30,098 bases of DNA from a virus. Both the position numbers and the translations under genes were made by a program. The stretch lies in the IMG/VR virus record IMGVR_UViG_3300030110_001259, positions 1 through 30,098 of that record, one strand, 5' to 3'. Below the pieces are notes generated by a model. It was not told where the DNA came from and ran no database searches. It was given only the letters and a program-made list of their open reading frames with translations. The stretch's first letter is position 1; every line of letters begins with the position of its first letter. Below are positions 1-26,790 of this stretch, piece by piece.

Positions 1-501
1 GGTATACGTCCTAATTGTACAGACAGTGTAGTAGAAGCAGGAGATGTTATACCTATACACGGTGGCTTTGATGGATACGTATATAGACAAGACCAAGGCG
101 ATACATTTGATGGTAGACTAATTCAAGCTAAGTATCGTAGTCCTGATCTTACCTTTGGAGATCCGGGCATTAGAAAACATATGCAAAGGGTAAATATAAA
201 CTACGCACCTGAATCAACTATTGACGCAGATATGTTTGTACGGTATGATTACGAAGATGCAAACTCCACACGACCTGCAGCGTATGCGTTAGATAGTTTA
301 AATGTTGGTGGTGTATATGGAGCATCAGCTACCACGTATGGCGTAGCAGCCTACGGTGGTCCTTCATCACCAATCGTTAGAAAGTCAGTAGAGGGTTCAG
401 GCTTTGCTGTAGCATTAAGAGTAGAAGATGGGTCTAATTCAACTGGGCCATATTCGTTAAAAGGATTTCAAATGGAGTTTCAATTAGGGGCTAGAAGATA
501 A
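1..501 (+). CDS. Tail structural protein, C-terminal part (5' end outside window)
   Basis: The reading frame is open from base 1 to a TAA at 499-501, giving 166 residues. The ATG at 181 is internal, because the frame upstream of it is uninterrupted and reads as ordinary protein (for example DQGDTFDGRLIQAKYRSPDLTFG). The C-terminus, SLKGFQMEFQLGARR, resembles the C-terminal end of large podovirus tail nozzle/tubular (T7 gp12-like) structural proteins, and the position just before the fibre genes fits that. I recognise the style of the ending rather than a defined domain, so the role is a moderate inference. The stop overlaps the start of the fibre gene in a TAATG, which suggests coupled translation. 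Confidence 0.6.
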   Translation, partial: GIRPNCTDSVVEAGDVIPIHGGFDGYVYRQDQGDTFDGRLIQAKYRSPDLTFGDPGIRKHMQRVNINYAPESTIDADMFVRYDYEDANSTRPAAYALDSLNVGGVYGASATTYGVAAYGGPSSPIVRKSVEGSGFAVALRVEDGSNSTGPYSLKGFQMEFQLGARR

Positions 502-3500
502 TGGGTGCAACCTACACAAGACAATCAACTTACGCAGATGGAGATACCATAACTGCGGCACATACGAATGATGAGTTTGACCAACTCTTAGCTGCTTTTG
601 CATCAAGTTCAGGACACACTCACGATGGTACAGCAGCAGAAGGTGGGCCTATTACATCGTTATTAGGTAATACACTTACCTTTGGTGCAGCTACTTCAGG
701 TACAGACATTACAATTACCTTTGATGGTGAGAGCAATGATGGTGTACTTAAATGGATGGAGGACGAAGACTACTTTGAGTTCTCTGACGACATACTTGTA
801 GCATCTACAGAAAAAGTACAACTTCGTGATACAGGCATATACCTATACTCATCTACTGATGGACAGCTAGATGCTATTGCAGATGGTGAAGTGGCTATTA
901 CATCCCCTATCGTAGACATTGATGCATCTACAGGTATTGCTCTTGATGGTGCAAACCTTAACTCTACGTGGACAGTTAATACAACAAATAAAATACAGTG
1001 GCGTGATTCTGGTTTGTACATTAATTCAAGCACAGATGGACAGCTAGACATTGTAGCTGACTCAGAAGTACAGATAGCTGCAACAACCATAGATATAAAT
1101 GGTAACGTAGATGTATCTGGAACTCTTGCAGTTGCAGGTGTATTAACTGGAGCATCTTTAGATATTAGTGGTAATATAGATATAGACGGCATTACCAACT
1201 TAGATGTTGTAGACATTGATGGTGCAGTAGATATGGCATCAACACTTACAGTTGCAGGGGTAGTTGACATAACTGATGCGACAGATTCTAGTGACGCTAC
1301 AGGTGACACAGGAGCTTTACGAACTGAAGGTGGAGCAAGCATAGCTAAGAAACTATATGTAGGAACAGACTTAGACGTAGACGGTACAACAAACCTTGAT
1401 GCCGTTGACATTGACGGAGCCGTACAATTAGATGCTACTCTGACAATAGGAGCTAACGACCAAGGCTACGATGTTATACTCTACGGTGATACAGCATCAG
1501 CTAATATGACTTGGGATACATCAGCAGATGACTTGATCTTCAACGGTGCAGCAGGACTTATTGTACCTGATGGACAGTTTACTTTAGGTAGTACAGCAGT
1601 ATCCGCAACGGCAGCAGAAATTAACTTAATTGATGGCGGTACATCAAGAGGTACAACTGCCGTAGCTTCAGGTGACGGTATCCTGATCAATGACGCTGGC
1701 ACAATGAGAATGACTAATGTTGACACTGTATCTACATACTTTTCTAGTCATAATGTTGGTGGCAGTAATATCGTCACAACTGGTGCATTAAACTCAGGCT
1801 CTATTACGTCTGGCTTTGGGTCTATAGATATAGGCTCTAGTGCTTTATCAACAACAGGGTCTGTTACACTAGGAGCTACATCTTTTGGTGACAATGATAT
1901 AACAAATGTTGGAGATATTGCCCTTGATTCAATAAGTGCAGATGGTACAGATATTAACTTAGCTGTGTCAGATAACTCCGCTACAGCCCTTACAATTAAA
2001 CAAGGGTCAGATGCTTATCTTATAATTGATACAGCTAACAGTAGTGAGTCTGTATCTATTGGTACTGGTATATCTGGTACCGCTATTACATTAGGACACA
2101 GCACTTCAGAAGTAACAGTATCAGATAACCTTACAGTTACAGGTAATTTTACTGTCAACGGTACAACCACTACAGTTAATACAACTAACTTAACTGTTAC
2201 AGATCCACTCGTTAAGTATGGTCAAGGTGCTACAGGTACTTCAGTTGACCAAGGCTTTATTGTTACTCGTGGAGATGGTTCAAGTAGTAACACTGCAAAC
2301 AGAGGCTTTATCTGGGATGAGTCTGCGGATGAGTTTGCAACCATTGCAGCTAACACAGAAGCAGGAACTACTGCAGGTAACGTAACTATCAATGACTATG
2401 CACCGCTACACGTAGGAGCAATAACAGCAGATGATAACTCTACGTTCTCAGGTGAGATTGCTGCAGCATCTCTTGATATTTCTGGTAACATAGATGTAGA
2501 TGGTACAACTAACCTAGACGCTGTAGATATTGATGGTGCAGTGCAACTAGACGCTACACTTACTATTGGTGCTAATGATCAGGGTTATGATGTAATATTA
2601 TATGGTGACACTGCCTCTGCAAATATGACTTGGGATACCTCTGCTGACGATTTAATTTTTAATGGGGCTGCAGGTTTAATTGTTCCTGATGGACAACTAA
2701 CACTTGGTAGCACAGCAATATCTGCAACTGCTGCAGAGATCAACCTAATTGACGGTGGAACTTCTAGAGGCACAACCTCTGTAGCTTCAGGGGATGGCAT
2801 ACTTATTAACGATGGTGGTACAATGCGTATGACTAACGTAGATACTGTGTCTACATATTTCTCTAGTCACAATGTAGGTGGCGGTAACATTGTTACAACA
2901 GGTGCGTTAAACTCAGGATCTATTACATCTGGTTTTGGTACAATAGATACTGGCTCATCAGCTATTACCACAACAGGTGTAATTACTGGTGGTACAGTAG
3001 AAGCTACTGCAGATACGTCTGCAGGTGATAATGCAGCAATAGGTTATACTGCAGCAGAAGGACTTATACTTACAGGTCAAGGTAGTACCTCAGATATTAC
3101 AGTGAAGAATGACGCAGATGCTGTAGTGTTTACTGTTCCTACTGGCACAGATGACATACTATTTCCTGATGGTGCAAAGGCTATGTTTGGTGATGCGTCT
3201 GATTTAAAAATATCCCACGATGGAAGCAATAGTTATATCTATGATACTGGAACAGGTGGACTATATATTCAAGGTGATACATTTGTTTCTATAGGTAGTC
3301 CTAGTGGAGAGACAGGTTTAACATATACAAAAGATGGTGCGATTGCTTTACATCACGATAATAATTCCAAACTTGCCACTAGCGCAACTGGCATAACAGT
3401 CACAGGAACAGCCGTTGCTACAACTGACACAGATACATCTAACTCAGGAAGTGTCACACTAGACTTTGGTGCTAATCAAAACTTTGTACTTACACTTACA

Positions 3501-3734
3501 GGCAACGTAACTCTAGCTAACCCCTCTACTGAGCAAGTAGGACAATCAGGGTTTATAGCGTGTATACAAGACGGAACAGGATCACGAACATTGTCTTTAG
3601 GAACAGATTATGAAACAGCAGGTGGATCAGGTATTACTCTAACTACAACAGCAAGTGCTACAGACCTCATACCTTACGTAGTTATTGCAGCCAACCGTAT
3701 TCTACTTGGCACACCACAGTTGGCGTTCTCATAA
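501..3734 (+). CDS. Repetitive tail fibre protein (1077 aa)
   Basis: This protein is rich in Gly, Ser, Thr, Asp and Ala and poor in Lys, Arg and Cys, typical of beta-rich phage fibres that contact the host. Several repeat classes are visible. RDTGIYLYSSTDGQLD and RDSGLYINSSTDGQLD occur near residues 110 and 170. LDISGNIDIDG-type strands recur, and a 160-residue block is duplicated (residues 294-453 and 667-826). The C-terminal third carries LKISHDGSNSYIYDTGTGG and a final beta-rich region with DFGANQNFVLTLTGNVTLA, a style common in marine phage fibres. The ATG at 501 overlaps the previous stop (TAATG) and the end overlaps the next gene the same way. The fibre role is confident; the receptor and the trimeric state are not visible in the sequence. 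Confidence 0.85.
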   Translation: MGATYTRQSTYADGDTITAAHTNDEFDQLLAAFASSSGHTHDGTAAEGGPITSLLGNTLTFGAATSGTDITITFDGESNDGVLKWMEDEDYFEFSDDILVASTEKVQLRDTGIYLYSSTDGQLDAIADGEVAITSPIVDIDASTGIALDGANLNSTWTVNTTNKIQWRDSGLYINSSTDGQLDIVADSEVQIAATTIDINGNVDVSGTLAVAGVLTGASLDISGNIDIDGITNLDVVDIDGAVDMASTLTVAGVVDITDATDSSDATGDTGALRTEGGASIAKKLYVGTDLDVDGTTNLDAVDIDGAVQLDATLTIGANDQGYDVILYGDTASANMTWDTSADDLIFNGAAGLIVPDGQFTLGSTAVSATAAEINLIDGGTSRGTTAVASGDGILINDAGTMRMTNVDTVSTYFSSHNVGGSNIVTTGALNSGSITSGFGSIDIGSSALSTTGSVTLGATSFGDNDITNVGDIALDSISADGTDINLAVSDNSATALTIKQGSDAYLIIDTANSSESVSIGTGISGTAITLGHSTSEVTVSDNLTVTGNFTVNGTTTTVNTTNLTVTDPLVKYGQGATGTSVDQGFIVTRGDGSSSNTANRGFIWDESADEFATIAANTEAGTTAGNVTINDYAPLHVGAITADDNSTFSGEIAAASLDISGNIDVDGTTNLDAVDIDGAVQLDATLTIGANDQGYDVILYGDTASANMTWDTSADDLIFNGAAGLIVPDGQLTLGSTAISATAAEINLIDGGTSRGTTSVASGDGILINDGGTMRMTNVDTVSTYFSSHNVGGGNIVTTGALNSGSITSGFGTIDTGSSAITTTGVITGGTVEATADTSAGDNAAIGYTAAEGLILTGQGSTSDITVKNDADAVVFTVPTGTDDILFPDGAKAMFGDASDLKISHDGSNSYIYDTGTGGLYIQGDTFVSIGSPSGETGLTYTKDGAIALHHDNNSKLATSATGITVTGTAVATTDTDTSNSGSVTLDFGANQNFVLTLTGNVTLANPSTEQVGQSGFIACIQDGTGSRTLSLGTDYETAGGSGITLTTTASATDLIPYVVIAANRILLGTPQLAFS
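1380..1859 (+). repeat. Fibre duplication, copy 1 (160 codons)
   Basis: Copy 1 of an in-frame intragenic duplication encoding fibre residues 294-453, starting DGTTNLDAVDIDGAVQLD. The second copy lies 1119 bases downstream. Their proteins differ at 9 of 160 residues by my count, yet the DNA differs at most synonymous sites. Confidence 0.95.
2499..2978 (+). repeat. Fibre duplication, copy 2 (160 codons)
   Basis: Copy 2 of the intragenic duplication, encoding fibre residues 667-826. In the first 66 codons compared with copy 1, 46 codons differ and every difference is synonymous. See the matching finding. Confidence 0.95.
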
Positions 3735-6172
3735 TGAGTGGTCCTTTTGGTGCATCACAATTTATGTATGCCACAGATAGTGGGTTTTATCCTTTTGAGA
3801 TAACTAATTCTCTTAGACTTGATTATGTAGCTGAGTCTCGTTTAAAAATGACACCTAGTTCTAGTCCTACTTCAGCTCAAAAATTTACTATGAGTTATTG
3901 GTTAAAAAGAACTCAAATTAGTGCAAGTAATACAAGAACTTACTTTTTATATGCACCTTACTCTGGCGGTGATGGTAGTAATGAATCTCATTGTTCTTTT
4001 GACGACAACAATGGTAACGGAGGATCTTTTAGAATATACGATAGTGGTACTTCTAGAGGTTCTTTAGTATCAGTGTCTAAATTTAGAGATAGTGGTGCTT
4101 GGGTTAATATTGTATGTGCTGTGGATACAACTCAAGGAACAGCAGGTGATAGAGTAAAACTTTATATTAACGGTGTTCAATCTTCGTTTACAGGAACACA
4201 GCCAGCACAAGATGTTACTTGGGGATGGAATGGTACTACTGAACATTGCTTTGGCTCATATAGAGATTCTAGTGGAAGTTTTGGTGATTATTACGTTGCA
4301 GACTTTAATATGATTGATGGACAACAATTAGCTGCGTCATCATTTGGAGAATTTAAAAATGATATTTGGGTTCCTAAAAACACATCAGGATTAACTTTTG
4401 GAACAAATGGTGTAAGGCTAGAGTTTAAACAAACAGGAACAAGTGCTGATAGTAGCGGAATTGGTGCAGACACAAGTGGTAATGACCATCATTTTTCAGT
4501 AACAAATTTATCTGCACACGATGTAGTTTCTGATAGTCCAACTAATAATTTTTGCACTATGAATTCTGTAGACACAGACCCTGACGTAACATTTTCTGAA
4601 GGAAACTTAAAGTTAGCAGTTGGAAGTTCTCCAGTCGGAGGTGTAAGAGGAACTTTTGGCCTTACTTCTGGAAAATGGTATTGGGAAGTATTTAACAATG
4701 ATACTGGTAATGGAGTTGGCATTGGTGTTTTTGGTAGGACTGCTGCAATTACTGCTTGGCCTTCTATTGTTAGTGGTACTCTTTATATTACTGCGTTAAA
4801 AAACGTCAATGGCACAGAATCTTCATATGGTGCTACTTATACTGATGATGACATTATTGGTGTTGCTCTAAATTGTGATGATGGAGAAATTACTTTTTAC
4901 AAAAACAACGCATCACAAGGCACTCTTTCTACAATACCTACTACATCTTTTCCTGCGTGGGCTGATGGTGCTACTTCTGCAAGTGCAACTGCAACTGTTA
5001 ATTTTGGACAAGATAGTTCATTTGCTGGTGCAGCTACGGCACAAAATAATACAGACGGAAATGGTATAGGTGACTTTTACTACGCACCACCAACAGGTTT
5101 TTTAGCTCTATGCACATCCAATCTTTCTGCCCCTGCCGCAACCATAGACCCAAATCAAGGGGGTTCACCTCAAGATTATTTTCACACAAAATTGTATACT
5201 GGTAATGGTTCCACTCAAAGCATTACAGGAGTTGGATTTCAACCAAACTTTACATGGATTAAAAATAGAGGGCAACATGACGATCATGCTTTGACAGACA
5301 GTGTACGAGGCGTAACAAAAGAACTAAGTTCTGATAATACTGATGCTGAAATTACAAACGCAGATGGTTTAACTGCTTTTGGAGCAGACGGATTTAGTTT
5401 AGGTGATGACGATATATACAATACAAGTAGTGAATCTTATGTATCTTGGAATTGGAAAGCAGAAACTGCATTTAGTAATGACGCTAGTGCAACAGGTGTA
5501 GGTGCGCTTGACAGTGCAGGAACAATAAATACTGATGTTGGTTTTGCTATTATTGGGTACACAGGAACAGGTTCTGCAACTACAATAGCTCACGGATTAG
5601 GAAAAAAACCTCAATTTATTATAGCAAAAAATAGAGAGGGTAGTGATAATTGGCGTTGTTATGCAGAATCAATAGGAGCAGGAAAAAGACTTCAACTCCA
5701 CGATAATTCCGCAGAAGGTTCTTCAAGTTCTACGTGGAATAATACTGAACCAACTACTGCTGTTTTTAGTGTGGGATCTGCTGATGAAACAAATCACAGT
5801 AGTGAAGATATGATAGCATATTTATTTACAAGTATAGATGGCTATTCAAGTATTGGTGAGTATAAAGGAAATAATGACGATAATGGCACGTTTGTTTATA
5901 CTGGGTTTAGACCAGCTTTTATTTTAATTAAACGAACTAGCTCAAGTGGTGATTGGTTAATTTATGATTCTAAACGAGATGGAGGAAATGGAAATAACGC
6001 TGTTTTATATCCAGCAGAAGATATTGATGAAGAAAATCAAGCATCTCGTAGAATAGATATATTAAGTAATGGATTTAAACCTCGTACAAGTAACTCAAAT
6101 TTAAATGGGTCTTCTGATTATTTCTATTACGCTATTGCTGCCCAACCCTTTAAATACTCTAACGGTAGGTGA
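3734..6172 (+). CDS. Tail fibre/adhesin with ConA-like and SPRY-like domains (812 aa)
   Basis: Probable second host-contact protein. Residues about 25-245 look like a LamG/concanavalin-A-like jelly roll: FTMSYWLKR, then AWVNIVCAVDTT, then VKLYINGVQSSFTGTQ. Residues about 290-430 look like SPRY: GKWYWEVFNNDTGNGVGIGV, then DIIGVALNCDDGEITFYKNN. The C-terminal part from 481 has three related modules that open with YTGNGSTQSITGVGFQPNF (488), YTGTGSATTIAHGLGKKPQF (609) and FVYTGFRPAFILIKR (720). Each is followed by a K-x-R segment and a W or Y strand. Both lectin-like folds often bind glycans, so surface-sugar recognition is likely but inferred. The start overlaps the fibre stop (TAATG). The DNA looks more A/T-rich than the fibre upstream, which would fit a swapped host-range module. 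Confidence 0.78.
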   Translation: MSGPFGASQFMYATDSGFYPFEITNSLRLDYVAESRLKMTPSSSPTSAQKFTMSYWLKRTQISASNTRTYFLYAPYSGGDGSNESHCSFDDNNGNGGSFRIYDSGTSRGSLVSVSKFRDSGAWVNIVCAVDTTQGTAGDRVKLYINGVQSSFTGTQPAQDVTWGWNGTTEHCFGSYRDSSGSFGDYYVADFNMIDGQQLAASSFGEFKNDIWVPKNTSGLTFGTNGVRLEFKQTGTSADSSGIGADTSGNDHHFSVTNLSAHDVVSDSPTNNFCTMNSVDTDPDVTFSEGNLKLAVGSSPVGGVRGTFGLTSGKWYWEVFNNDTGNGVGIGVFGRTAAITAWPSIVSGTLYITALKNVNGTESSYGATYTDDDIIGVALNCDDGEITFYKNNASQGTLSTIPTTSFPAWADGATSASATATVNFGQDSSFAGAATAQNNTDGNGIGDFYYAPPTGFLALCTSNLSAPAATIDPNQGGSPQDYFHTKLYTGNGSTQSITGVGFQPNFTWIKNRGQHDDHALTDSVRGVTKELSSDNTDAEITNADGLTAFGADGFSLGDDDIYNTSSESYVSWNWKAETAFSNDASATGVGALDSAGTINTDVGFAIIGYTGTGSATTIAHGLGKKPQFIIAKNREGSDNWRCYAESIGAGKRLQLHDNSAEGSSSSTWNNTEPTTAVFSVGSADETNHSSEDMIAYLFTSIDGYSSIGEYKGNNDDNGTFVYTGFRPAFILIKRTSSSGDWLIYDSKRDGGNGNNAVLYPAEDIDEENQASRRIDILSNGFKPRTSNSNLNGSSDYFYYAIAAQPFKYSNGR

Positions 6173-16062: not shown

Positions 16063-16258
16063 ATCTTCTAATATCTGTGTATCTCTTACACCACATAAAC
16101 ACTTCAGTTAAATGTTCAATAGCTTTATCTTTCTCTAAAGAATCACTCATAGTATCTTGTATGTATTCCTCTAAAGGGTCTAGCTTTTCAGCTACCCCTT
16201 TTATGAGTTTATACTTTCGATCTTTAATATACTGTTCTGCCTCTCTGATTATACTCAT
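16061..16258 (-). CDS. NrdJ-coupled small protein (65 aa)
   Basis: I chose the ATG at 16258, which shares ATGA with the reductase stop; a GTG nine bases further upstream is possible. The protein is helical and charged, starting MSIIREAEQYIKDRKYKLIK and ending FMWCKRYTDIRR. One Cys sits in the C-terminal MWCKRY segment. Strict coupling to the ribonucleotide reductase suggests a role in the same pathway or complex, but I recognise no domain. It is the last gene of the minus arm and its stop touches the opposing operon. Confidence 0.7.
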   Translation of the reverse strand: MSIIREAEQYIKDRKYKLIKGVAEKLDPLEEYIQDTMSDSLEKDKAIEHLTEVFMWCKRYTDIRR

Positions 16259-17964
16259 ACTCCACACGAGCCTCCTTGACCACTGATGTCACATATGTCG
16301 TGAGTCAATACACCTTCTTCAAACTCTTCCCCTAATTTCTCAACTGCTTCACTGTAAGGTACAGACGTAAGCGGCTGACCACCACGACTGCCATCAGGGT
16401 AGCACGTAAACCCACGTAGCCTGTGGGCGTAGCTTGCTAAAGTATAAGCAAAGTCACGTACTGTATCTTCGTTGTTGAGTTTACTACCCCAAGCAGGAAG
16501 ATTAATTGTAGAACTAATACTCATGTCTACATAGTCTTGTACGTCAGCTTGAAACTTTATCCTTCTTTCGTAGTCTGAAGCTAAGTCTAACGCACTCTCA
16601 ACTTGTTCTGGGTCTGTACCGTAAAGATCAATGAGTTCTTGTGCGGCACTATCTACAACATATTGATAATGCCATCTCGTATTTCCTTTAAGATATCTCC
16701 TCTTATATGCCACAGCAAAGATAGGCTCAATGCCTGTTGATGTACCAGCTAGTATGCCGATAGATCCTGTAGGTGCTATAGCTCTATTCGCTACTGGTTT
16801 GGTAATAGATAACTTCTCTGAGAACTCCTTAGAGACTTTATCAGACTCTCCCCTATATACTGAAAGCCACTGGTGTAACTCAGGAGTGACCTCATATTTA
16901 TATCCTTTTTTTATGAGCCACTCGTGTACACCCATAAAGCCTAGACCTAATCTCCTATTTTTAGATCTTACTTTATACACCTTATCGTAAGGTAGCTGTG
17001 CCTTTAACGTCCCACAGATAAGGAACATAGTGGCTAGACGTACAACATCCTTTAGCTCAGTAAGAGTTTCGATGCGTCCAAAGTTCAGTGAACCCAAGTT
17101 ACATACATCACTATCGTCTTCACTTGTTACTTCGGTACAAGCGTTACGTAGTGTCTCATTCTCTTTATCAAAGAAGTTAAATGAGAATCCGGGTTCTGCT
17201 GTCTTCATAGCTTGTGTAACATTAGCCTCAAATGTAGGTCCAACTACACCAGTTTCGTAGTAGTTAAGCAACCATTTTGTATCGTAGTTTACTGAAACAT
17301 TTGTCATATCTAAAGGTGCAGGGAAGTTAAAGTCTTCTTGCTTTATATCCCAGAGAGTTTTACCTGTACTACCTACAGGCATTGATGCCCAATCTTTAGC
17401 CTTCAAAAACTTATAGATGTCAGGATGTTGCCAGTTAAGACTAGCGTAGATAGCTGATCTTCTACTGCCACCCTGCATCACCCTTCTCCCAATCTCATTT
17501 ATCATGTTCATCTTAGGTATAGGTCCAGATGCTTCGCCACCTGTCCTCTGTATTGGTTCGCCTTCTCCTCTGTAGATAGAGTAGTCTACACCTATACCAC
17601 CACCTGTCATCAGACAACTCTCTGACTTCCAAGATAGGTTAGCCCAATCTTCTCGTGTATCTTCTTCAGCTTTGAGTAAGTAACAGTTATTAAAGAACTT
17701 GTTGAGTCTACCTGCGTAGTACAAGTAACGACCACCGGGAATAAACTTCATGTCTCGAATGTATTCTTCTAGCTGTTGTCTCTCTTCTTTAGATAGGTAA
17801 GCATCGGAGTTACCTGATGAGGCAGGGGATTTACATACATCTTCTACAAGAGTGTGAGCTAATGCAGCCCACGTTTCTGCTCCATCGTGTCTGTACTTCT
17901 GGTTGAATATGTCTTCTGAGAATTTAGATCTCAGCATAGGGTTTAAGTTAGATCTGTATTGCAT
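16255..17964 (-). CDS. nrdJ: Adenosylcobalamin-dependent (class II) ribonucleotide reductase (569 aa)
   Basis: Makes deoxyribonucleotides for phage replication. The reductase finger loop NACTEV supplies Asn274, thiyl Cys276 and Glu278. The redox pair is Cys94 (FFNNCYLL) and Cys288 (SDVCNLGSLN). APTGSIG at 398 is the phosphate-binding loop. The C-terminus carries Cys558 and Cys567 (GGSCGV), which in this family pass electrons to the active-site disulfide. No small-subunit (NrdB) gene and no glycyl-radical motif is seen, so class II with B12 cofactor is the consistent reading; class is inferred from compact size and lack of a partner. It would need cobalamin from the host. A TAATG junction couples it to MazG. 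Confidence 0.9.
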   Translation of the reverse strand: MQYRSNLNPMLRSKFSEDIFNQKYRHDGAETWAALAHTLVEDVCKSPASSGNSDAYLSKEERQQLEEYIRDMKFIPGGRYLYYAGRLNKFFNNCYLLKAEEDTREDWANLSWKSESCLMTGGGIGVDYSIYRGEGEPIQRTGGEASGPIPKMNMINEIGRRVMQGGSRRSAIYASLNWQHPDIYKFLKAKDWASMPVGSTGKTLWDIKQEDFNFPAPLDMTNVSVNYDTKWLLNYYETGVVGPTFEANVTQAMKTAEPGFSFNFFDKENETLRNACTEVTSEDDSDVCNLGSLNFGRIETLTELKDVVRLATMFLICGTLKAQLPYDKVYKVRSKNRRLGLGFMGVHEWLIKKGYKYEVTPELHQWLSVYRGESDKVSKEFSEKLSITKPVANRAIAPTGSIGILAGTSTGIEPIFAVAYKRRYLKGNTRWHYQYVVDSAAQELIDLYGTDPEQVESALDLASDYERRIKFQADVQDYVDMSISSTINLPAWGSKLNNEDTVRDFAYTLASYAHRLRGFTCYPDGSRGGQPLTSVPYSEAVEKLGEEFEEGVLTHDICDISGQGGSCGV

Positions 17965-21214: not shown

Positions 21215-21242
21215 GTTATAAGAGCCTATAGTTTTACTACAA
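21215..21242 (-). promoter_or_regulatory. Possible sigma-70-type promoter in the largest gap of the minus arm
   Basis: On the minus strand, TTGTAG (21242-21237), then 16 bases, then TATAAC (21220-21215). The -10 matches 5 of 6 consensus bases and the -35 only 3 of 6; the latter overlaps the polymerase stop. This 41-base gap is the one clear break in a tightly overlapped arm. Match is weak and AT-rich DNA gives such hits by chance. Confidence 0.28.
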
Positions 21243-23285
21243 TACGTCTTTTGTGTCAAGCCAATTATTACCTATTTTTGCTTCTAGTAACATTGGTACA
21301 CACAACTCTATTCCATAGGCTTCGTGTATTATTTTATCTAAATCATCATTCAAATTACGTATAATCTGTAGCACATACTCCTTCTCATTTGGGTGTACAT
21401 CAACTACGGCTGAGTCGTGTACTGTGTTAACGAGACAAGACTGCAAAGGTCTTAGTCTTTCTTCTAGTTCCATAACTACGACAGGTACAATATCTGCTGT
21501 AGCTAATCCTTGCACAGGGTAGTTCTTGATCATAGTGAAGTGAGTTACCTTACCACCTGCCCTGCGTTGTGCATCAGGGAAAGCGTACTGCCTACCTGAC
21601 ACGTTAGTTATCTTACCTGTAGCAAGTACTTCTTTAGCGAGAGACTTATGCCACGTAGCTATGCCTGAGTACTTATCGTTGAAGTGTGTATAGTATGAGG
21701 CTTCTGCCCTACTCCTGCCATAGCCACTAGCCCCAAAGAGAGGAGCAAAGGTATGAGCCTTCGCTTCTTGGCGTGATGTCTTCTGACCTGCATCAGTTAT
21801 AACTTTAGCTGTATAACTATGCACATCAAACCCTGTGTTAATCTCATCAATGGCTGTCTTATCTTCAGATAGGTGTGCAGCTACACGAAACTCTAGCTGT
21901 GCGAAGTCAGCCTCTAAGATGTGTCCACCTTCCCATCGTGATACAAATACTTTCTTTACTGGAAACGTACCACCACGAGGCATATTTTGCATATTGGGAT
22001 TGCGTCCACTGAACCGACCTGTAGCTGATACGTGTTGTGTCAGTCCAACGTGGAGTAACCCATCAGGTTTAGTGAAGATACTGATACCCTCTACGAATGT
22101 AGATAGGTACGATGTAAGTGCAGATAATCTTTTAACGTCTTGTATAAACAATACTGCCTCGTTCATTTTATTGTTACGTGCTGTACTAATAAGTATGTCG
22201 AGACTATCTTTGCCTGTCTTGAAACCATTAGCATTTACCCACGACTTATCTCTAGGTGATAACTTAAACCCTGCCACAACTCCTGTGTCTAACAGTAAGT
22301 ATCCTTTTGCATTACAGTCTGGACAACCACTAGGCTTTTTAAAGTTACTACCATCTTTCTTTATTTTAAATACTTTACCTTTTCCTTTACACTTAAAACA
22401 CATCTTAGCTTTAGTCTTACTTAATATAGTACTGTAAGTACTAAGTGTATCTTTAAACTCTTCAGGTGATATAGACTCAAATGTATCCACCCAAGTTTTT
22501 TTGTCAATGGGGGTGCGACTAAATAACACTTTAGACATTTGTTCACCACTGTTGAGATTGATTGGTGTGTCACCCATGTACTTGCGTACTGTAAGATTGA
22601 GTCTGTCTTCTATCGCTACCTTCTCATCTTCAAACTCTTTGCGTACACTCTGCAAGACATCTGCATCAATCTTTATACCATTCATATACATACGAGTAAG
22701 TGTTTTGCATACATTGAAGGTTATGTCTCTGACGTTGTGCAAGGTTTGACTTTCAGCAGTAGCATAGTCCTTTTCTTGACTGTGATATAGTGACGCAGTT
22801 GCATTTAAGTCACATCTTAGGTAGTGATCTAGCTCTTTTATAGGTATCTCATTCGTATTATACCCATCTTTGTAGTATTTCTTGAGCGTGTCGTCCTTCT
22901 GATGATCTAATTCACGATACTCTGCACACGCTTCAAGGCTCAGAGGACGTTTTTGACCCCTAAGTAGTACATATTCAGCTAACATTGTGTCATATATGTC
23001 ACCATCATACTTAAAACCACTAGCCCACAGCCACATCAAGTCGTGTTGTGCGTTGTGCATTACCACTAGAGTAGCATTATCTAACACAGCTTGTAGTTGT
23101 CTTGCCCGGTCGCCCGATATGTCTTGATAGTCAACGTGATCAAACGTCATAACGTACTGTTCATCAGGGTTGTCTAGGTTTTGTATTCCTACTTGTGTCA
23201 ATGTATTGGTAGGCTCAAAGGGATCAAGGTGTGTCTTACCATCTCTCTTTGTTACTGTGTTCTCTACATCTAGTACTAGTCTCAT
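21237..23285 (-). CDS. Family-A DNA polymerase with 3'-5' exonuclease and inserted DnaJ-type zinc finger (682 aa)
   Basis: Replicative polymerase. Exonuclease residues are intact: Asp6/Glu8 (LDVEN), Asp82 (HNAQHD), and Tyr155/Asp159 (YLRCD). Residues 296-324 hold CFKCKGKG and CPDCNAKG, a DnaJ-like two-CxxC zinc finger, between exonuclease and polymerase. Polymerase motif A is LEADFAQLEFR (Asp460), motif B RQEAKAHTFAPLFG (Arg505, Lys509, Phe513) and motif C VHDS (His623, Asp624). Phe513 aligns with E. coli Pol I Phe762, the position used to compare viral polymerases. Motif C ends in Ser where cellular enzymes have Glu. A strong ribosome site, GAGGAGA, lies upstream of the ATG. The DnaJ insertion is the described hallmark of HMO-2011-type phages. 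Confidence 0.95.
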   Translation of the reverse strand: MRLVLDVENTVTKRDGKTHLDPFEPTNTLTQVGIQNLDNPDEQYVMTFDHVDYQDISGDRARQLQAVLDNATLVVMHNAQHDLMWLWASGFKYDGDIYDTMLAEYVLLRGQKRPLSLEACAEYRELDHQKDDTLKKYYKDGYNTNEIPIKELDHYLRCDLNATASLYHSQEKDYATAESQTLHNVRDITFNVCKTLTRMYMNGIKIDADVLQSVRKEFEDEKVAIEDRLNLTVRKYMGDTPINLNSGEQMSKVLFSRTPIDKKTWVDTFESISPEEFKDTLSTYSTILSKTKAKMCFKCKGKGKVFKIKKDGSNFKKPSGCPDCNAKGYLLLDTGVVAGFKLSPRDKSWVNANGFKTGKDSLDILISTARNNKMNEAVLFIQDVKRLSALTSYLSTFVEGISIFTKPDGLLHVGLTQHVSATGRFSGRNPNMQNMPRGGTFPVKKVFVSRWEGGHILEADFAQLEFRVAAHLSEDKTAIDEINTGFDVHSYTAKVITDAGQKTSRQEAKAHTFAPLFGASGYGRSRAEASYYTHFNDKYSGIATWHKSLAKEVLATGKITNVSGRQYAFPDAQRRAGGKVTHFTMIKNYPVQGLATADIVPVVVMELEERLRPLQSCLVNTVHDSAVVDVHPNEKEYVLQIIRNLNDDLDKIIHEAYGIELCVPMLLEAKIGNNWLDTKDVL

Positions 23286-23296
23286 CTATCTTCTCC

Positions 23297-23830
23297 TCAA
23301 ATAAAATTTTCACTAGAATAAAACTTAAACCGTTTGTTCTTAGAGCTTGCTCTATTCTTAACTGCTTTCATATTATCTGAAACTGAAACCCAACGCAAGT
23401 TTTCTATTTTATAGTCTAGTTTATCCTCATTTATGTGGTCTACATTATAATTATCTTTTGGTAATTGGTTAGGTACAAATGCCATTCCAAATATTCTGTG
23501 TGCGTATACTCGTTTACCCTGTTTTCCATTATTAATAGTATAACATGGATATACTGCACGACTACAATTTGGCATGATGGTATTTCCTGTGTGTGTATTA
23601 ACAATATAAGGAAAGTCTGTGCGACTTTCATACATAGGTAATGGGTGTATGCCCCCAGTAGAGTACAATAAATATTTTTCTTTTGGTACAGACTTTAAGA
23701 AATCTGAAGTTCTGTTTAAGTCAACTCTACGTTGACCTGATTCTCCAAAAAATATTGCTATGTCTGCTATATCTAATACATCTTGAACTAAAGTTGTATC
23801 TTCTTTTATAAAGAAATCTAACTGTCTCAT
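23297..23830 (-). CDS. HNH endonuclease, probable free-standing homing-type (177 aa)
   Basis: The C-terminal half carries an HNH core: VYAHRIFGMAF (His111), NVDHINEDKLDYKIENLRW (Asp131/His132, Asn144) and SVSDNMKAV (Asn153). Residues 1-70 are a separate N-terminal part that I do not recognise. The gene lies between helicase and DNA polymerase, a place often occupied by mobile endonucleases. Its start shares ATGA with the helicase stop, so it is built into the operon's translation. The DNA looks more A/T-rich than its flanks, with fewer G/C-ending codons, which suggests late arrival. Mobility is inferred; no intron is seen in its neighbours. Confidence 0.82.
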   Translation of the reverse strand: MRQLDFFIKEDTTLVQDVLDIADIAIFFGESGQRRVDLNRTSDFLKSVPKEKYLLYSTGGIHPLPMYESRTDFPYIVNTHTGNTIMPNCSRAVYPCYTINNGKQGKRVYAHRIFGMAFVPNQLPKDNYNVDHINEDKLDYKIENLRWVSVSDNMKAVKNRASSKNKRFKFYSSENFI

Positions 23831-25056: not shown

Positions 25057-25883
25057 TGTGTGTACTCCTTTAATTTTAATACATCTTCTTCTGTTTTATA
25101 TTTAATGTCATCTTGTAACATCATTACCATTGTGTTGATCCCTGTCCAAGATTCAATCTCCCTTTTGTACTCAATGCTTTTATGTGTAGCGTCAGGATCA
25201 AGTGCTACAATAATCTTTGTGTAGTCTTGTAAGTATTCCATATGATCGTAGTTTATATTAGTACCTAAGATTGCTATGCCTGTGACATTTGGACACACCT
25301 TTGCTACAGTGATAGCACTAATGACATCTTCTACTAGTACAACTACTCCGTTTGGCTCACCCATACATCTAGTATAAACATATGCATTACCTGTGTACCT
25401 ATACCATTTAGGTACAGCACGACTAGCATAACCATTAAGTGATCTACCAATCGCATCTATTAACTTTCTGTGCTTATCTCGTATCAGAAACACAGCACGT
25501 TCATCTTTTACATCATACATAACATCTTTATATTCACTCTCTAAGTTCCACCTAGATATAAACCTATGATAGGTAGTCTGTGATGGTTCAGGATAAGTGA
25601 TATATTCTGGTATCTCGAAGACAGGTATAGTCTTTTGTGCTGTTTTTTCTAACTCGTTTCTGTAATCAGTTATCTTTTTTCTTATTTCTGTAGCAGACAA
25701 ACTAATATTTAATACTCCTTTACTTAAACAATTAAGTTTATAGCAGTTATACAACACAACACCATCTTCTCGTGTGGCAGTAAAAGTATTAATAGATCTG
25801 CAAACAGGACAGTCACCTCTAAAGTTTTCACCTTCTTTAAGATAAAGGTCTTCTATGTATTCTTTAAGATTGTTTTCTTCCAT
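25053..25883 (-). CDS. DNA primase with zinc ribbon and TOPRIM (276 aa)
   Basis: I chose the ATG at 25883 because GAGAGGAG lies just upstream of it; a GTG at 25916 and an ATG at 25904 are in frame but lack such a site. A zinc ribbon is formed by Cys25, Cys28, Cys47 and Cys52. The TOPRIM core has Glu185 in VVVLVEDVISA and the DxD pair Asp229/Asp231 in IIVALDPDA. It makes RNA primers for the adjacent helicase and polymerase. It is short for a bacterial DnaG and similar to the primase half of T7 gp4. It overlaps the recombinase by 20 bases and the helicase by ATGA. Confidence 0.88.
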   Translation of the reverse strand: MEENNLKEYIEDLYLKEGENFRGDCPVCRSINTFTATREDGVVLYNCYKLNCLSKGVLNISLSATEIRKKITDYRNELEKTAQKTIPVFEIPEYITYPEPSQTTYHRFISRWNLESEYKDVMYDVKDERAVFLIRDKHRKLIDAIGRSLNGYASRAVPKWYRYTGNAYVYTRCMGEPNGVVVLVEDVISAITVAKVCPNVTGIAILGTNINYDHMEYLQDYTKIIVALDPDATHKSIEYKREIESWTGINTMVMMLQDDIKYKTEEDVLKLKEYTQ

Positions 25884-26790
25884 CTCTTCTCCTCTCTTGT
25901 GCATCTTTTGCACCACTAAATGTATTGACTAAGTAAGGCACAAGACTTTGATGTGACTGATGCCCTGTCACTTGCTTTATACCTATCCAATCAACGCCTA
26001 CTTCTGACATCTCTACGACAGCAGTACGTCTAAGATCCCTAGCTTGTAGCTCATTAGATAGATTAACTTCTTGCTTTACCTGTTTGAAAAGCTTAGATAT
26101 TTCATCTTCTTCATAGCAAGAATAGTTACCTGCCCTCGCTACAGTACGAGGTGCTACATACTCTGACAACCCATCATACTCTTCTTTTTGTTTTTGCAGA
26201 ACTTTAGTTAACGTGTCACCTATAGATAGGTGTACGTCCACTCCTCTTTTGTTTTGACGTATGTCCATTCTTTGTGCAACTAAGTCTACAGAGTCCCACT
26301 TCAACAATCGTATGTCACCTACACGTTGTCCAGACTCATAAAGTATATGACATATCAATCCAATACTACGCCATTTAAAGTCTGAGTATGCCGTGTTTAA
26401 AAATAGTTTTACTTGATCATAAGTCCACACAGTTCTGCGTGGTTTACATTTTAATTTAGGAACAAGTGCCATAAGATTTTGAGGTATGATACTGTGTCTA
26501 ATACAATCGTTTAATACTATACTAACATTAGTTGATATATAATTAGCGGCTCTAGTTCCTTTGTCCAACCACGTATCATATGCTGTATTAAGATGGGCAT
26601 ACCTTATATCTTTTACAGGTAGTCTGCCTAGTATCTTATTACCTTGTACCTTAGTTTCACAAGCAACTTTTAAGTTACTCATATATTTTTTCTGACTAGA
26701 TGTAGTTAAAGCACAGAAAGATTTACTTCTCATATAGTAACTACACGCAGTTTCAAAAGTTGAATTGTGTTTTAATTCAATGTGTCTCAT
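25864..26790 (-). CDS. int: Tyrosine recombinase/integrase (308 aa)
   Basis: An N-terminal core-binding SAM-like region (residues 10-115) precedes the catalytic domain. Catalytic positions are Arg156 (ESGQRVGDIR), Lys181 (QNKRGV), Arg254 (ARDLRRTAV), His277 (TGHQSH) and nucleophile Tyr286 (VPYLVNT). The usual His of the HxxR box is Arg251, a substitution tolerated in some family members. It could integrate the phage or act as a resolvase. It has no adjacent intergenic attP, repressor or excisionase, and is locked between a micropeptide and the primase by overlaps, which is unusual for a lysogeny module. Confidence 0.9.
   Translation of the reverse strand: MRHIELKHNSTFETACSYYMRSKSFCALTTSSQKKYMSNLKVACETKVQGNKILGRLPVKDIRYAHLNTAYDTWLDKGTRAANYISTNVSIVLNDCIRHSIIPQNLMALVPKLKCKPRRTVWTYDQVKLFLNTAYSDFKWRSIGLICHILYESGQRVGDIRLLKWDSVDLVAQRMDIRQNKRGVDVHLSIGDTLTKVLQKQKEEYDGLSEYVAPRTVARAGNYSCYEEDEISKLFKQVKQEVNLSNELQARDLRRTAVVEMSEVGVDWIGIKQVTGHQSHQSLVPYLVNTFSGAKDAQERRRDGRKQS

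Follow-up and report, generated by a model that had tools for sequence, protein, structure and literature searches.

A phage fibre gene as a probable mosaic: two long-separated versions of one module with conserved residues and saturated synonymous sites

The putative fibre gene of a virus record from IMG/VR, which was analysed over its whole length of 30,098 bases (the window in the following), encodes two segments that are almost identical in amino acid sequence and strongly diverged at synonymous sites, and this raises the question of how both came to reside in one gene. Residues 294-453 and 667-826 of the deduced protein of 1077 amino acids are identical at 151 of 160 positions, with a DNA identity of 76.5% over these 160 codons. 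At the start of the segments all 66 residues are identical (294-359 and 667-732), yet 46 of the codons differ, the differences comprising 3 first, no second and 45 third codon positions. A recount agreed with the preliminary description of this locus both in the position and number of the matching residues and in the number of silently differing codons. The identity between the two module copies, designated A and B (Table 1), starts at residue 292, and their homology (E value of 8.6e-92) is far above chance.

The proteins matching the product of the open reading frame are phage fibre and structural proteins; no Pfam family exceeded the cut-off, with a sub-threshold match only, and no PHROG was assigned. 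The designation as fibre gene rests on the annotation of the homologues and on the gene position. The genes adjoining it are the same in L183, a second contig carrying both copies, and the upstream gene is the same in L103. An antisense open frame of 213 amino acids within the fibre gene (770-1411, minus strand) is open in L183 and L103 too and is probably a by-product of the codon use of the fibre. The next structural gene (3734-6172, plus strand) specifies a protein with SPRY and DUF7483 domains that is 47% identical to its counterpart in L183, the upstream regions 1-501 and 501-1376 being 94% and 98% identical, respectively; its product may be a faster-changing host-contact protein. The module of the window is part of no PHROG and four of 31 module members matched an uncharacterised PHROG family, and a sequence search of the PDB with the module gave no match. 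An AlphaFold2 monomer model of the module, built from 31 sequences, was of middling confidence (mean pLDDT of 69.6) and had paired strands in the regions 22-57 and 101-114, followed by a helix (115-124). A fold search of the PDB with this model returned nothing with an E value below 0.001, and the matches at E values above 0.4 are meaningless.

Table 1. Features of the fibre gene region, in window positions.
Feature	Position	Strand	Basis and relatives (nucleotide identity)
Fibre-like structural protein ORF	501-3734	+	Open frame, gene position, annotation of homologues
Hinge motif 1, DGITNLDVVDIDG	1185-1223	+	Motif scan; alignments to other fibres often end at 1221-1260
Module copy A, residues 293-453	1377-1859	+	98% L103, 94.8% L183 copy A, 91% L001/L002, 77% copy B
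Hinge motif 2, DGTTNLDAVDIDG, start of copy A	1380-1418	+	Motif scan; pile-up of left ends at 1361-1380
Linker between the copies	1860-2440	+	97% L103, 95% L104, 94% L183 and L003, 88-92% L105 and L112-L115
Module copy B, residues 666-826	2496-2978	+	94% L183 copy B
Hinge motif 3, DGTTNLDAVDIDG, start of copy B; putative junction	2499-2537	+	Relatives leave the window here
Segment after copy B	2979-3170	+	82% L004, 79% L005; not common to L183
Conserved C-terminal fibre segment	3422-3734	+	93% L056, 89% L183

The DNA polymerase encoded by the window (21237-23285, minus strand) matched those of HMO-2011-type marine podoviruses (HMO-2011 and the roseophages CRP-1, CRP-2, CRP-207 and CRP-603) over its full length, with identities of 55-64% (64% to CRP-603 and 55% to HMO-2011). 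As judged from this sequence comparison, the match places the phage in or beside the HMO-2011-type group. A DNA polymerase with a zinc-finger insert and a tyrosine integrase gene beside the replication genes are hallmarks of these phages (PMC6918029, PMC8528129), and the window phage resembles them in the integrase gene and, apparently, in the insert. The polymerase appears to belong to family A and to carry a DnaJ-like zinc-finger insert (CFKCKGKG ... CPDCNAKG); with respect to two CXXCXGXG motifs, the first element fits, whereas the second fits at the cysteines and not at the first glycine. The integrase gene (25864-26790, minus strand; phrog_1 integrase, E value of 2e-27) is located near the replication genes. 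An open reading frame of 569 amino acids (16255-17964, minus strand) resembles the large chain of ribonucleotide reductase, and another of 177 amino acids between the helicase and polymerase genes (23297-23830, minus strand) contains an HNH-endonuclease-like stretch, NVDHINEDKLDYKIENLRW. Beyond short N-terminal matches, the HMO-2011-type isolates do not share the fibre that carries the A/B module, and the match of HMO-2011 covers residues 1-57 only. Part of the module is present in a fibre-like or baseplate gene of the Pelagibacter phage HTVC008M, with 75.7% nucleotide identity over 226 nt of copy A and 68% amino acid identity; this phage differs in being larger (147 kb record), and only about 20% of the window fibre is covered by the match.

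Synonymous and nonsynonymous differences between A and B were counted according to Nei-Gojobori, which yielded a proportion of synonymous differences of 0.79, a value beyond correction, and a dN of 0.045. When synonymous codons were shuffled within each copy, the resulting null distribution had a nucleotide identity of 0.759 +/- 0.013 and a longest exact run of 17.3 +/- 4.1 nt, compared with observed values of 0.766 and 17 nt. Accordingly, the synonymous sites of A and B are saturated, with no remaining similarity, and not scrambled past saturation. The first 67 codons lie slightly under the null (P = 0.085) and the codons thereafter slightly over it (P = 0.03 for an identity at or above the observed one), and the composition of the two copies is not strongly separated (GC3 of 0.286 and 0.211). 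At 42% identity of fourfold degenerate sites, A and B share 94% of their amino acids, whereas the DNA polymerase and a relative share 57% at 42% and the next structural gene 47% at 52%. The module seems to be under tighter constraint than the polymerase when pairs of comparable synonymous distance are considered, the A/B pair having been picked for its high protein identity.

Viral contigs were scanned with A, B and the linker as queries, and the module turned out to be widespread among them. Copy A is 98, 91 and 87% identical in nucleotide sequence to modules of other phages and 77% to B. Copy B is followed, after L183, by L056, with 88.5% identity over its first 200 nt and over its last 253 nt, and its last 273 nt are 85-88% identical to L004 and L005. 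In a DNA tree, A groups with copy A of L183 and L103 (100/99) and then with L001 (92/89), whereas B groups with copy B of L183 (99/97); the deeper forks lack resolution. The alignment of each copy to related fibres, as suggested in the preliminary description, revealed separate DNA affinities of A and B. The closest relatives also change along the gene, being L103 for A and the linker, L183 and then L056 for B, L004 for the segment following B and L056 for the C-terminal segment.

Phages carrying one version of the module are found on both sides, the main evidence coming from L001, L002 and L104 for A and from L056 for B. Colinearity with the window extends in L103 over positions 1-2542 (93.7%) and breaks off within the first part of B; in L003 and L104 it covers 1374-2542 (about 89%) and also breaks off at 2542. 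L106, L107 and L109, in which a complete A is missing, share the linker and end at approximately 2542 as well. No second copy above 33% was detected in L001 and L002, which contain copy A, and no B in the 700 nt following A and the linker in L104, where the best match was 28%. On the other side, L056 resembles the window in its N-terminal part (91%) and its C-terminal part (93%) and possesses a B-like module (88.5% to B and 82% to A) and neither A nor the linker. The one module of L004 and L005 corresponds to B in its end and in the sequence following it (2451-3170 at 81-82%). No second copy was present in L056, L004 and L005, the nearest single-copy relatives of B. A single-copy donor within 5% of B was not found in the scanned contigs, the nearest being L056 with its split module. 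This module (L056 4034-5332) is interrupted at the equivalent of window positions 2727-2752 by an insert of about 790 nt made up of other fibre sequence, and the split is a second exchange point inside the module; left ends of alignments also pile up at 2721-2740. A scan with a B-specific 23-mer also gave L182, which lacks any alignment to the window.

The positions at which the relatives leave the window coincide with a repeated motif. A motif scan detected DG-TNLD-VDIDG three times in the fibre (Table 1), and 118 of the 722 deduplicated ORFs from the collected loci contain it, up to four times per ORF. The fibre was aligned to other loci, and the left ends of the 928 distinct alignments were counted in bins of 20 nt: 91 fell into the bin 1361-1380 and 109 (57 and 52) into the two bins 2441-2480, compared with about six per bin for an even distribution. 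The window, L183, L103, L003, L104 and L109 have DNA in common up to approximately 2518-2542, and past this point all but L183 leave the window and enter several different sequences.

L183, which was found by scans with B-specific patterns, shows a colinear match (94%) to window positions 1-2968 and departs near 2968. Between the two contigs, the copies A are 94.8% and the copies B 94.1% identical, whereas A and B are 77-79% identical in both contigs. Gene conversion or concerted evolution between the copies was rejected, since the corresponding copies of different contigs are far closer than A and B within one contig. The dS values were 0.22 for residues 1-292, 0.20 for A, 0.17 for the linker and 0.19 for B, and the respective dN values were 0.011, 0.010, 0.030 and 0.023; the dN/dS ratio of each copy, the calculation of which had been proposed in the preliminary description, was about 0.05 for A and about 0.12 for B, with about 0.05 for the N-terminal part. 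Accordingly, synonymous rates are ordinary in both copies, and both are subject to purifying selection. Independent retention of both copies at ordinary rates across the gene, which the preliminary description had regarded as speaking against its reading, is largely what was found in L183.

Repeats of this kind were surveyed in 722 deduplicated ORFs of at least 350 amino acids in 409 sequences, consisting of the window and the collected loci. With a criterion of at least 45 codons and at least 90% amino acid identity, 65 internal repeats were detected in 49 of the 722 ORFs, mostly at 71-88% nucleotide identity; as the loci had been collected by similarity to such modules, these 49 ORFs do not represent a rate for all phage fibres. 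The pair of the window (149 codons, 96.6% amino acid and 77% nucleotide identity) lies well within the range, as exemplified by repeats in L063 (115 codons, 96.5% and 74%) and L098 (213 codons, 96% and 81%). Such repeats are a common feature of these fibres, and a special mechanism does not have to be invoked for the divergence of the copies. Internal repeats at 92-96% nucleotide identity, unlike the pair of the window, occur in L369, L392, L060, L380 and L118 and are apparently recent duplications.

The preliminary description had considered selection against homologous recombination between the copies, which would delete 1.1 kb; such selection would have actively driven their synonymous sites apart. 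The pair of the window itself is compatible with this proposal: its nucleotide identity of 0.774 is exceeded by each of the six matched copies from other contigs (rank 0.00 of 6), and fourfold degenerate sites are identical at 9 of 33 positions over the first 66 codons, roughly as expected if the codons had been chosen independently. An early small comparison had likewise hinted at stronger DNA divergence of within-gene copies, a trend that was gone after three more scans and a stricter control. Each within-gene repeat was then ranked among segments of other contigs with the same protein similarity (+/- 0.035) and with both flanks unrelated, and the 32 repeats with at least three matched segments gave a mean rank of 0.50 (Wilcoxon p = 0.86) and, at fourfold degenerate sites, of 0.52 (p = 0.65). 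Within-gene copies were thus not more diverged in DNA than matched between-contig copies over these 32 repeats, which argues against a general selection of this type; the pair of L183 ranked at 0.25 of 8 and those of other fibres up to 1.0, the A/B differences and the longest exact run fit the codon-shuffle null, and several fibres retain the repeats at 92-96% nucleotide identity mentioned above. The ranks are to be read with the limits that repeats of related fibres are not fully independent, that repeats below 45 codons and of low complexity were left out, and that assembly tends to lose near-identical repeats, a bias that would lower ranks and not raise them. The proposal is consequently regarded as highly improbable, and only a marginally better, still very slim chance is given to a selection or survival filter that favoured copies with little shared DNA in the pair of the window.

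An assembly artefact, in which two related phages were merged into one contig at the repeated module, might be suspected for a 30 kb IMG/VR virus record with a junction at a shared motif, and it is extremely improbable because the separate contig L183 has the same order of A, linker and B at 94% with differences spread throughout; moreover, the longest exact match between A and B is 17 nt. Recent tandem duplication, which predicts copies that are alike in DNA and mutually closest, was discarded, as modules of other phages reach 98% and 91% identity to A, compared with 76.5% between A and B. An ancient tandem duplication in one ancestral fibre, followed by strong purifying selection on both copies and the loss of one copy in many descendants, would account for the joint retention of A and B at ordinary rates in L183 and is compatible with the poor resolution of the deep forks of the tree. 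It has to be set against this that the single modules of L001, L004, L005 and L003 (83-91%) resemble A more closely than B does (77%), that phages with the same linker enter different sequence exactly at the motif, and that the single-copy phages of both types demand several independent losses, and we consider this explanation unlikely.

The term duplication used in the preliminary description is in this respect misleading: the likeness of A and B is real, but the data speak for copies that had diverged before they were brought together, and A and B were probably not duplicated within the lineage of the window. Two of the options named there, exchange with a diverged relative and strong constraint, are supported in combination, with separate DNA lineages and junctions at the repeated motif. 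Because A and B have separate affinities, relatives break off at the motif, single-copy relatives exist and the copies of L183 evolve at ordinary rates, the fibre gene is very probably composed of exchangeable modules in mosaic fashion, with A and B as long-separated versions from a pool circulating among marine phages, joined by recombination and kept alike in their residues by purifying selection. The crossover would have occurred between non-matching copies of DG-TNLD-VDIDG, the motif before B in one phage pairing with the motif after the linker in another, so that a left part with A and the linker, as in L103, L003 and L104, was connected to a right part with B, as in L056, L004 and L005, in the order seen in the window. 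Purifying selection, acting in the separate lineages before the joining and on both copies since then, would have preserved the residues while the synonymous sites became saturated, and the conserved residues may serve the fold of the repeated fibre segment. Other module pairs at the synonymous distance of A and B have protein identities from about 70% upward; the identity of A and B over 66 residues is at the high end of between-contig pairs at such distances and counts against the joining explanation, as do the missing close donor of B and the contig of L103, which ends 51 nt past its departure point and might contain a second copy further on.

Modular tail fibres and receptor-binding proteins of phages, and the exchange of their modules, are well known (Smug et al. 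2023, PMC10684548). The window fibre has in common with the fibres described there the conservation of the N-terminal part, continuing exchange between distant phages and fragments with sharp boundaries that occur in otherwise different fibre proteins: its alignments to relatives start and stop sharply at recurring module boundaries, adjoining segments have different closest relatives, and A and B appear to have separate origins in other phages, with a single-copy donor of B at 88.5% at best. It differs from the surveyed mosaics in that two old versions of one module reside in one gene and are visible as a repeat within the protein whose synonymous sites are saturated, a form of mosaic for which no description was found in a limited literature search. 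The puzzle of silent change hence becomes a readable trace of module exchange, and fibre repeats that combine a conserved protein sequence with synonymous saturation would mark joins between versions from long-separated phage lineages. The frequency of such repeats in the surveyed ORFs, together with the null result for recombination avoidance, provides a baseline against which a truly unusual case can be recognized.
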